DNA of 64,000 nt from NCBI RefSeq assembly GCF_028830055.1, contig NZ_CP101655.1, positions 2,374,051 through 2,438,050 on the forward strand, read 5' to 3'. The stretch is from Pseudomonas serboccidentalis (GTDB lineage: Bacteria > Pseudomonadota > Gammaproteobacteria > Pseudomonadales > Pseudomonadaceae). A program made the translations under genes and the position numbers. Shown here in pieces: positions 1 to 1,312 of the stretch (position 1 is the first letter of the stretch; the number at the start of each line of letters is the position of its first letter). Below the pieces are notes generated by a model. That model did not search any database and was not told where the DNA came from. It was given only the letters and a program-made list of their open reading frames with translations.

Positions 1-422
1 GCTTGCGCTCATCCTGTTGAGTGGTGAAGAGCAGAAGCGGTGTGCTGTTGATTTCTGTGGGAGCTGGCCTGCCAGCGATGGCGGCCTACGAGCCGACCAA
101 TCTCTAACTGACCCCACCCATTCCCACTGTAGGAGTGAGCCTGCTCGCGATGGCGGCCTGCCAGCCGCCCCATTTCTACTGGGTGTACCCAATCCAACTG
201 TGGGAGCTGGCCTGCCAGCGAAGGCGACCTGCCAGCCGACCAATCTCTGCCGGATGTACCCAATTCAACTGTAGGAGTGAGCCTGCTCGCGATGGCGGCC
301 TGCCAGCCGCCCCATTTCTACTGGGTGTACCCAATCCAACTGTGGGAGCGAGCTTGCTCGCGAAAGCGGCGGACCAGACACCATCGAAATTGAGGGCAAT
401 TCCCGGCACTTCATGCCCTGTT
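1..422. repeat. REP cluster with a tandem ~142-bp unit
   Basis: No credible gene lies here; the short open frames on both strands simply run through repeats. REP-like cores of the type GGAG(T/C)GAGC(C/T)TGCTCGCGA occur near 130-155, 272-297 and 343-368, with related CTGGCCTGCCAGCG cores near 61-80 and 205-222. Bases 126-207 and 268-349 are identical, an exact repeat at a 142-base offset, which suggests local duplication of a REP plus its spacer. The cluster ends in TGTGGGAGCGAGCTTGCTCG, the same family found again near 41.7 kb and 47.3 kb. Such elements are non-coding and common between Pseudomonas genes. Confidence 0.8.
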
Positions 423-554
423 TAAATTACACGAACCGTTACGCCATAAAGGCTACAACGCCTTGCGCCGTTACCTACGCCTACGCCAGAATCCGCCGGC
501 TTACGCGGCCATGCAGTGGGCGATATCGTTTCCCTGTCACTGAAAAACAGTGAT

Positions 555-570
555 CGGGTTTGGTAGCCCG
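555..570 (+). promoter_or_regulatory. Target hairpin A of the C4-like RNA leader
   Basis: Stem CGGG (555-558) pairs with CCCG (567-570) around the eight-base loop TTTGGTAG. The same loop recurs in a second hairpin at 704-727. Bases 682-692 (CTACCAACCCG) are complementary to this arm and loop with one bulge. A 23-codon reading frame starts just downstream at ATG 585 and stops at 654, the position where phage P1 c4 loci carry the icd-type frame. That the hairpin is an antisense target is inference. Confidence 0.55.
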
Positions 571-600
571 TCTGTAATAGCTGTATGGCGACACCGTATG

Positions 601-711
601 CAGTCCCTTTTTGGGGGCTCGGTTTTATGGTGGTCATGCGTGGGGCTCATTCGTGAGCGCCGGGTTCCTATTGCAGCCGGTCTACCAACCCGCGTATGGC
701 CGCCACCCTCG
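601..711 (+). ncRNA. C4 / P4-CI-like antisense RNA
   Basis: The sequence folds into a three-way junction. A long stem pairs 628-644 with 689-705: 17 consecutive pairs, four of them G-U. Inside it are a UUCG-loop hairpin (645-649/654-658) and a CCGG/CCGG hairpin (660-663/677-680). This leaves CTACCAA (682-688) exposed in the junction, and it is complementary to the TTTGGTAG loops of hairpins on both sides (559-566 and 712-719). That layout, an exposed antisense segment flanked by two matching targets, is the design of the phage P1/P7 c4 RNA and phage P4 CI immunity RNA (C4 antisense RNA family). In those phages the RNA pairs with its own leader and causes premature termination or blocks translation. 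The fold was worked out by hand; family membership needs a covariance-model search. Confidence 0.6.
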
Positions 712-727
712 TTTGGTAGCGAGGGTG
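704..727 (+). promoter_or_regulatory. Target hairpin C of the C4-like RNA leader
   Basis: Eight base pairs (CACCCTCG 704-711 with CGAGGGTG 720-727) close the loop TTTGGTAG (712-719), identical to the loop at 559-566 and complementary to 682-688. It lies 34 bases before the start codon of the DUF6124-type gene. It could therefore act as a terminator-like or translation-controlling element for that gene. Confidence 0.5.
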
Positions 728-761
728 ATGGCTCCTTGAAATCTGCGATAGGAGTTCATCC

Positions 762-1118
762 ATGTTCAAAATCACACCCAACCCACCGCACACTGACCCA
801 ATCCCCCACGACCCAGCGCTTGAGTCTCAGAAGACCAAAGAGGCAACGGATCGCGCCCTCGACTACTACCTCAGACCCGAAGCTCTGGTAGCGCCGCCCA
901 AGACTCGTCCCATCTACCTTGTCGATCCCACACTGGATGACGAAACCCTGCTCGTCGAAGCCTGTGAATCGCTGTCCTCGGCCAAAGCCATGGCCGGCAA
1001 CATCGCCAACTCCGTGAGCGGCCCGGAGCGTCAACCGCTGCTGGCGCTGCAACAGCTGATCATGCTGAACGAGCTGCTGGTCAATCGACTGCTGGATAAG
1101 CTGCGCGTGCCCCTGTAG
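762..1118 (+). CDS. DUF6124-type small protein
   Basis: This 118-residue soluble protein has no signal peptide or membrane segment. It begins MFKITPNPP and contains the ERALDYYL-like segment (DRALDYYLRP, about residues 31-40). The C-terminal half (about 60-115) looks helical and ends in a Leu-rich run, LIMLNELLVNRLLDKL. I recognise the pattern as the Pseudomonas family annotated DUF6124/DUF3077, whose members are multicopy and have no known function. ATG 762 is supported by GGAG at 751-754. The structured leader immediately upstream (555-727) resembles a phage immunity RNA, so expression may be controlled by RNA-RNA pairing. Family assignment is from memory of the motif. Confidence 0.75.
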   Translation: MFKITPNPPHTDPIPHDPALESQKTKEATDRALDYYLRPEALVAPPKTRPIYLVDPTLDDETLLVEACESLSSAKAMAGNIANSVSGPERQPLLALQQLIMLNELLVNRLLDKLRVPL

Positions 1119-1177
1119 GAGTGAGCCTGTTCGCGATGGTGGCCTGCCAGGTAGCATCAATTTCAGACAGGCAACAA

Positions 1178-1208
1178 AAAGCCCGGAAGCTCTCGCTGTC
1201 CGGGCTTT
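1178..1208 (+). terminator. Rho-independent terminator after the DUF6124-type gene
   Basis: AAAGCCCGG is followed about 10 bases later by its complement CCGGGCTTT, flanked by an A-run on the left. It can serve the DUF6124-type gene and, in the other direction, the convergent gene at 1313-1795. A decayed REP copy (about 1115-1152) lies between the stop codon and this hairpin. Confidence 0.75.
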
Positions 1209-1312
1209 CAAGATCAAAAGATCACCACCGCGGCAACTCCTGCACGGTGTCATCTTTTCGATGTACCTCGAAGGGTACTTGCCCGCAGTTGCAGCGCTCA
1301 ACCCAGCCAGTG

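Follow-up and report, generated by a model that had tools for sequence, protein, structure and literature searches.

The window analysed here, a 64,000-nucleotide stretch of the Pseudomonas serboccidentalis chromosome (NZ_CP101655.1, positions 2,374,051 to 2,438,050), carries close to its 5' end a gene for a 118-residue DUF6124 protein (762..1118, + strand; PF19619, 71 bits against a cut-off of 27). The gene is preceded by a leader (540-760) that folds 5.4 standard deviations better than 200 dinucleotide shuffles. The surrounding genes are of a chromosomal type. Downstream of the DUF6124 gene lie a 160-residue protein without a Pfam match, a PAS+MCP chemoreceptor (labelled "Aer" here) and an AraC/DJ-1 regulator, and 5' of the module stand what we take to be an alpha/beta-hydrolase gene and cbb3 oxidase genes. 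Five direct repeats of about 51 nt with a spacing of 71-72, REP-like by eye, are located just 5' of the module (window 55-390), and comparable repeats are found near some other copies of the RNA described below.

The earlier note, which was made from the letters alone, had proposed a C4-type phage immunity RNA within the leader and had suggested a covariance-model search. The search was positive: a full-length RF01695 match at 623-710 (+) reaches 80.0 bits, over the gathering score of 45, with E 4.8e-14 computed on the complete window, and no other Rfam family exceeds its cut-off across the 64 kb. The proposed structural parts are also present, i.e. two identical loops TTTGGTAG at 559-566 and 712-719 and the segment CTACCAA at 682-688, and both the 17-pair main stem (628-644/689-705) and the UUCG-capped arm agree with the RF01695 consensus structure. 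A total of 23 C4 copies above cut-off reside on the same chromosome (one 6.0-Mb contig). Stem covariation, another point raised in the note, is evident among them as compensatory changes: over the 27 C4 pairs, base pairing is kept in 96.4% of cells, both sides have changed in 17 of the 27 (shuffled mean 8.5), and none of five covariation measures was reached by any of 500 shuffles.

C4 at this locus carries two addresses. The junction segment a' (681..690, +; CTACCAA at 682-688), assigned from the sequence and RF01695, complements the loops of two flanking hairpins, a1 (555..570, +; loop 559-566; duplex with a' -10.0 kcal/mol) and a2 (704..727, +; loop 712-719; -9.3 kcal/mol). A second pairing was absent from the earlier note. 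The apical loop of the third C4 arm, b' (664..676, +), is an anti-Shine-Dalgarno address complementary to b2 (743..754, +), the Shine-Dalgarno region CTGCGATAGGAG of the DUF6124 gene (-18.0 kcal/mol), and also to the segment b1 next to a1 (571..580, +; -10.2 kcal/mol). Both a property listed for RF01695, addresses a' and b' complementary to targets on both flanks, and a second one, the placement of b' over the downstream gene's ribosome-binding site, are thus found at this locus, the former in all four pairings and the latter as 664-676 with 743-754. Of 80 loci, 75 have an ORF, and in 69 of these 75 the distance from the b2 end to the start codon is -6 to +14 nt, a value that is partly built in, as closeness to b2 was one term in ORF choice.

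Upstream of a1, a putative sigma-70-type promoter, TTACGC-N17-TATCGT, is located at 501..529 (+). Its pattern, TTxxxC-N17-TAxxxT, was picked post hoc, only after inspection of the leader sequences, and is present in 14 of the 23 own-genome leaders, each with a 17-nt spacer (0.3 expected from shuffles); a generic promoter scan of window 380-1250 returned no promoter. In leaders L002, L005, L006, L009, L010, L013, L015, L017 and L018 of the same genome a by-eye conserved stretch, CTTGCGCC...CCAGAATCCGCCGGCTTGTGC, is located roughly 50-90 nt 5' of a1 and extends into the putative -35; it is possibly a regulator site in one module class. The 5' hairpin of the leader (536..554, +) corresponds to the first stem of c4-a1b1 in the RF03163 alignment. 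RF03163 scores 45.4 bits at window 523-574, slightly below its cut-off of 46.7, and among the 20 own loci scanned (20 of the 23) exceeds the cut-off in 10 and reaches E<=0.001 in 19. Between b1 and C4, a weak terminator-like hairpin with a U-rich tail is found (602..627, +). A 23-codon frame (ATG 585, stop 656), which had been placed at the position of phage P1 icd, does exist and is not conserved: by eye, the ATG is present in only 3 of 11 orthologous rows, and P1 icd follows c4 according to the available text of PMC8198154, so the frame was rejected as an icd relic. The same source gives the P1 gene order as c4, icd, ant. As b' pairs with the Shine-Dalgarno region of the DUF6124 gene, this gene, and not the 23-codon frame, stands in the place of icd and is its counterpart. 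No icd or ant genes follow C4 in the window; DUF6124 comes next, and then other chromosomal genes.

The earlier note pointed to similar leaders before other DUF6124 and DUF3077 genes in Pseudomonas, which proved correct on a large scale. Within the own genome, 20 of the 23 C4 copies are followed by a same-strand DUF6124 (17) or DUF3077 (3) gene, and the remaining three stand ahead of small proteins of a third type. In a search by protein only, C4 ends 45-56 nt 5' of the start codon in 78/78 DUF6124 loci of named Pseudomonas genomes; these loci derive from the best 80 of 305 relatives of the window protein and are therefore mostly one subfamily. Counted from the genes, the own genome holds 23 DUF6124/DUF3077 places, 20 with C4 and three without, the lax threshold included. 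One module (L005, 1501-2259), with a gene that is partly N, lies closely 5' of a 5S rRNA gene.

Across 119 Pseudomonas genomes, one per species, C4 matches occur in 110 (109 above cut-off), with a median of 13 per genome including zeros, 20 or more in 46 genomes and at least 1803 in total, no more than 33 matches being counted for any one genome. DUF6124 is found in 95 of the 119 genomes (94 above cut-off), never in a genome without C4, and the two copy numbers correlate with a Spearman coefficient of 0.88 when phylogeny is ignored. Fifteen genomes have 10 or more C4 yet five or fewer DUF6124; in three of these (G009, G025, G086), many of the downstream proteins examined resemble DUF3077 by eye or are short and start K-x-x-P-x-P-P. 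In a survey of the phylum, 42 of 299 genomes had C4, Pseudomonas accounting for five of the 42, with up to 14 copies scored per genome; DUF6124 was above cut-off in only four of the 299, all Pseudomonas. Another family of the order has C4 in 11 of 41 genomes, with four copies at most.

Both addresses co-vary with their own targets. The 23 own copies comprise 16 distinct a' (as 10-nt strings) and 23 distinct b'. Complementarity was scored ungapped, anywhere in the leader or in the downstream stretch. The mean for cognate versus non-cognate combinations is 17.9 versus 13.5 for a'-a1, 17.5 versus 12.5 for a'-a2, 18.5 versus 14.3 for b'-b1 and 22.1 versus 13.6 for b'-b2, and the observed mean was reached in none of 20,000 permutations for any of the four pairings; co-variation of a1 with a' is thereby included, and restricting the a' pairings to the 16 distinct a' still left no permutation that reached the observed mean. 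The own C4 was the joint best partner for a1 in 15, a2 in 17, b1 in 10 and b2 in 20 of the 23 copies. The same rule holds outside this genome. Among 57 copies that were taken from further genomes and from two phage records (out of 90 hits including the own 23, with 10 duplicates removed), the own C4 was best for a1 in 27, a2 in 38, b1 in 15 and b2 in 43; among 32 distinct copies out of 87 hits in the protein-chosen loci, where a' varies little, these numbers are 25, 30, 3 and 21. In neither set did any permutation reach the observed mean for any of the pairings.

The b2 rule also applies inside single chromosomes. Four genomes were inventoried for every C4 above cut-off (23, 38, 28 and 22 copies, 111 in total), and within each of them no permutation reached the observed mean for b2; the own C4 was best for b2 in 20/23 copies of the own genome, 18/38 in G009, 21/28 in G025 and 11/22 in G086. 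Among the protein-chosen copies, where C4 backbones are near-identical and b' differs, the own b2 fits better in 53 of 64 ordered pairs, with three ties. The rule has exceptions, in that the own C4 is not always the best partner and some C4 copies of other genomes lack a matching downstream target: a self b2 score below 16 was obtained for 15 of the 111 copies (G009 11/38, G025 2/28, G086 2/22, own genome 0/23), and several of the C4 copies with such scores are tandem or gene-less.

The locus itself was compared among relatives by means of the Aer gene (best 30 of 59 genomes). All of the ten closest Aer genes (DNA 91-100%, own included) have a module within about 5.5 kb on the Aer 3' side, G055 even two in tandem, and the hydrolase was seen on the far side of the module in the own genome and L162, the loci covered that far. 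In six of the next seven Aer loci (DNA 89-90%) the hydrolase sits beside Aer with no C4 or DUF6124 in between, while the seventh is cut off. As it is absent from these next-closest loci, the module was either gained on the own branch or lost on the other. In the orthologous copies the b' loop has been altered several times, with b2 and often b1 altered along. The alignment contains eleven rows (a twelfth is one site twice). For b'-b2, the cognate mean is 24.3 versus 13.2, a value reached in 2 of 40,320 permutations of the eight rows used; the other three repeat addresses, and two of the eight share one b'. In L131 and in one of two L160 copies a' has been altered together with both the a1 and the a2 loops. 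The earlier note had asked whether loops and junction segment change together or independently: they change together in the own copies, in other genomes and between orthologues at the window locus. Some copies without gene or target would fit a reading of the modules as inert remnants of phage immunity regions. Such a scenario appears very improbable to us, because the compensatory changes, which affect stems as well as both addresses and occur also between close orthologues, point to continuing selection.

Our results suggest that the window module is one of 23 self-addressed C4 antisense switches on its chromosome, and we regard this as probable. From the promoter at about 501-529 a transcript would start whose leader is ordered a1-b1, C4 RNA, a2-b2, gene. 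For P1/P7, release of C4 by RNase P as a species of about 77 nt has been reported, with similar processing in Acinetobacter, as far as the available part of PMC5320573 describes it, and by analogy with P1 and Acinetobacter the C4 RNA is probably excised from the transcript here as well. The excised C4 would then pair twice with its own mRNA, with a' contacting the a2 loop and b' the Shine-Dalgarno region b2. This resembles the P1 scheme, in which b' partially occludes the ribosome-binding site and a' gives specificity (PMC5320573, available part). We infer that the double contact would block the ribosome and keep the DUF6124 protein off, and that, through a1-b1, the 5' part of the transcript may be a further target of C4 or may titrate it. 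As each copy has its own b', and many have their own a', paralogues on one chromosome could be silenced independently. Judged from the sequence patterns, it is most likely that translation of each gene is silenced by the C4 in front of it and that address drift keeps the copies independent. A domesticated-phage origin of the switch, as put forward in the earlier note, is plausible.

The predicted folding of the complete leader bears on how the switch would work. In the lowest-energy fold a1-b1 pairs with C4 in cis and the C4 fold is broken (-107.3 versus -101.2 kcal/mol), and in 13 of the 23 own leaders a' pairs with the upstream region in the lowest-energy folds. The cis-paired fold is favoured by 6 kcal/mol, so that a bistable leader or an IsrK-like activating step is possible; in these models the fold fits an IsrK-like switch as well as a plain antisense one. 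IsrK of Salmonella Gifsy-1, an activator of orf45-anrP, has its parts arranged in a similar order, and the cis-paired window leader resembles the closed structure described in the accessible text on IsrK (PMC4825925). An 81-nt isrK and a 90-nt C4 RNA of Burkholderia cenocepacia are reported to share one transcriptional unit (PMC4603805, available part). A short 5' RNA (a1-b1, up to the pre-C4 hairpin) might accordingly open the long mRNA in trans. The isrK model RF01394 gives a weak match at window 536-612 (33.1 bits, below the cut-off of 50), and its score also stays under the cut-off at L003, L004 and L007. A terminator-like hairpin ahead of C4, by a lax definition, is found in 16 of the 23 own copies versus 11.3 in shuffles and is not significant. 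Activation by an IsrK-type RNA also leaves unexplained why b', a part of C4, fits the Shine-Dalgarno region so well, and we hold it to be rather unlikely.

Returning to silencing by C4, we find that the addresses differ between copies that share a chromosome. Within the four inventories b' is distinct in its own genome for 110 of 111 copies. In a set of 133 modules whose ORF has 70 residues or more, same-genome paralogue pairs with at least 75% protein identity share b' in 0 of 44 cases and between-genome pairs in 227 of 1593; at 95% identity or more the counts are 0 of 7 versus 65 of 175. By our arithmetic about seven same-genome pairs would be expected to share b' at the between-genome rates, a contrast that is suggestive and not a formal test, since the pairs are not independent. 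Cross-complementarity relative to self shows a smaller contrast (0.66-0.70 within genomes versus 0.73-0.83 between), and amounts to 1.0 for one same-genome pair. The tandem neighbours at L102 have proteins that are 99% identical and unrelated b'. Pseudomonas chromosomes may hold mutually orthogonal RNA locks, often tens of them, by which one gene family is silenced through private two-part addresses, forming a genome-wide self/non-self or incompatibility system. Addresses would then outpace proteins in divergence because two copies with one address would cross-silence. We put this forward tentatively, as an idea with somewhat less than even chances. If it is true, the modules act like heteroimmune phages, and a small-gene incompatibility system has arisen from a phage immunity RNA.

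The target of a chromosomal C4 might also lie elsewhere. Heteroimmunity of P1 and P7 is conferred by C4 (PMC12197685, available part), and chromosomal C4 RNAs could silence incoming phages, satellites or modules with a matching address, the linked gene being secondary. The C4 of satellite phage phiAH14b (L125) has a' and b' identical to those of L050 from Pseudomonas genome G030, and C4 copies without a target of their own do occur, some of them in tandem. All this stands against the observation that the addresses match the adjacent gene and that DUF6124 is present in only 1 of 50,697 phage records, where it lies near a prophage repressor with C4 preceding, and in none of 72,556 plasmids. Moreover, among 17 C4 copies that are target-less or suspect, a single b' beat all 15 of its shuffles against other modules (L120:1501 to L071, 27 versus a shuffled maximum of 25, without an a' match). 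The other b' matches of these 17 copies, which bear on a possible use of tandem target-less C4 as immunity memory, were within the range of the 15 shuffles. Immunity in trans as the main function seems improbable to us, more so than activation by an IsrK-type RNA. Tandem C4 RNAs, some about 100 nt apart, were seen at L253, L257, L259 and L270 (G009) and L098 (G025); several tandem copies in G009 and G025 have no matching target or gene behind them and no convincing target elsewhere.

The protein under control gives few hints as to its role. The DUF6124 window protein has no PHROG, PADLOC or NCBIfam match and, by sequence, no credible relative among solved structures (best E 0.12). AlphaFold2 places helices at residues 18-37, 39-42, 60-84 and 90-111 (mean pLDDT 78.8, pTM 0.48), with residues 61-110 at pLDDT 90-95 by block, and thus predicts a mostly helical protein whose C-terminal helical hairpin is confidently modelled. 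The two families DUF6124 and DUF3077 are homologous (hhalign of the two profiles: E 9e-7, probability 91%), and the profile of the third downstream group (IDTxAPL type) matches neither. Among 69 downstream proteins scanned there are 25 DUF6124, 13 DUF3077 and two Bro-N antirepressor-like proteins, and two of the 69 also match phage antirepressor families; the Bro-N/antirepressor members were assigned by eye to L126 (phage PAJU2) and L058 (a Pseudomonas genome). The 69 were taken from the 75 ORFs after exclusion of L005 (reads N), L022 (disrupted) and L112, one L120 and two L098, the latter by eye wrong frames or chance ORFs. A family of 52-54 residues (ALNPSKIRAAAHRAM type) was observed immediately 3' of C4 at L049, L072, L051, L068, L064, L050, L067, L095 and L003, in L003 as a 52-residue protein with DUF3077 further downstream. 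This family is perhaps the icd/orf45 counterpart in Pseudomonas prophages or satellites.

A small protein under RNA silencing calls to mind an addiction module, in which DUF6124 would be harmful when made and C4 would serve as RNA antitoxin. The P1 gene at the corresponding position, icd, is an inhibitor of cell division (PMC8198154, available part), the module is patchily present at one locus, and in 3 of the 23 own copies (L007, L021, L022) the DUF6124 frame has an inner stop, is shortened or is disrupted while C4 is intact. On the other side, DUF6124 matches no known toxin or defence family, and the own genome tolerates three DUF6124 genes without C4 (G000:C1 5548466, 2584492 and 1988422). 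These genes indicate that the protein does not need the switch, and they provide natural controls for the action of the protein when unsilenced. We consider an addiction function doubtful, its chances being slightly below those of activation by an IsrK-type RNA and slightly above those of immunity in trans.

The C4 RNA, its fold and its two-part pairing are already known from P1/P7. No account of C4-DUF6124 modules in Pseudomonas was found in the titles and abstract openings of the open literature searched; DUF6124 is named nowhere in that literature, and DUF3077 only in passing. New within these bounds are the linked target family, the two-part self-address rule, the genus-wide expansion and the address divergence of paralogues. 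In Acinetobacter baumannii AB5075, 21 similar chromosomal "Group 1" C4-like sRNAs have been described by Weiss et al. 2016 (PMC5320573, available part). The Acinetobacter-era question of what chromosomal C4 RNAs target receives an answer in Pseudomonas: their own adjacent genes, by way of two sequence-readable addresses. DUF6124 and DUF3077, both uncharacterised, become one homologous group under predicted RNA control. The modules also represent a natural library of antisense regulators, in which the rules of pairing are open to testing by simple swaps, and, if the address divergence is selected, phage-style immunity logic operates inside a bacterial chromosome.

A comparison with known systems shows which parts are shared. 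With P1/P7 C4 (RF01695; c4-icd-ant) the Pseudomonas modules have in common the fold, the order a1-b1/C4/a2-b2, the a' and b' segments, the position of b' over the ribosome-binding site and an RNA ahead of a small gene. In contrast to P1/P7, the Pseudomonas sets are chromosomal and multi-copy, are predicted to control DUF6124/DUF3077 instead of icd-ant, and almost all copies on a given chromosome differ from one another in b'. The A-B-C layout, with an immunity RNA that pairs with targets on both sides, is also that of the P4 CI RNA (seqA-seqB-seqC). P4 CI acts by premature transcription termination according to the accessible text of PMC4825925, whereas the strongest pairing in the window is with the Shine-Dalgarno region. 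The IsrK/orf45-anrP locus of Salmonella Gifsy-1 (RF01394) likewise has an a1-b1-like leader, a terminator, a C4-like segment and a small ORF with a paired start; unlike the window, which stays under the isrK cut-off, it is a prophage locus with an antirepressor downstream. The A. baumannii Group 1 RNAs resemble the Pseudomonas ones in their mostly C4-type fold and variable a' and b', and in Acinetobacter the RNAs are expressed and apparently processed. The available part of that report (PMC5320573) identifies no linked target genes for them and suggests phage or host targets. In Pseudomonas, unlike in Group 1, the targets can be read off directly as the flanking a1-b1 and a2-b2 segments together with the start of the gene.
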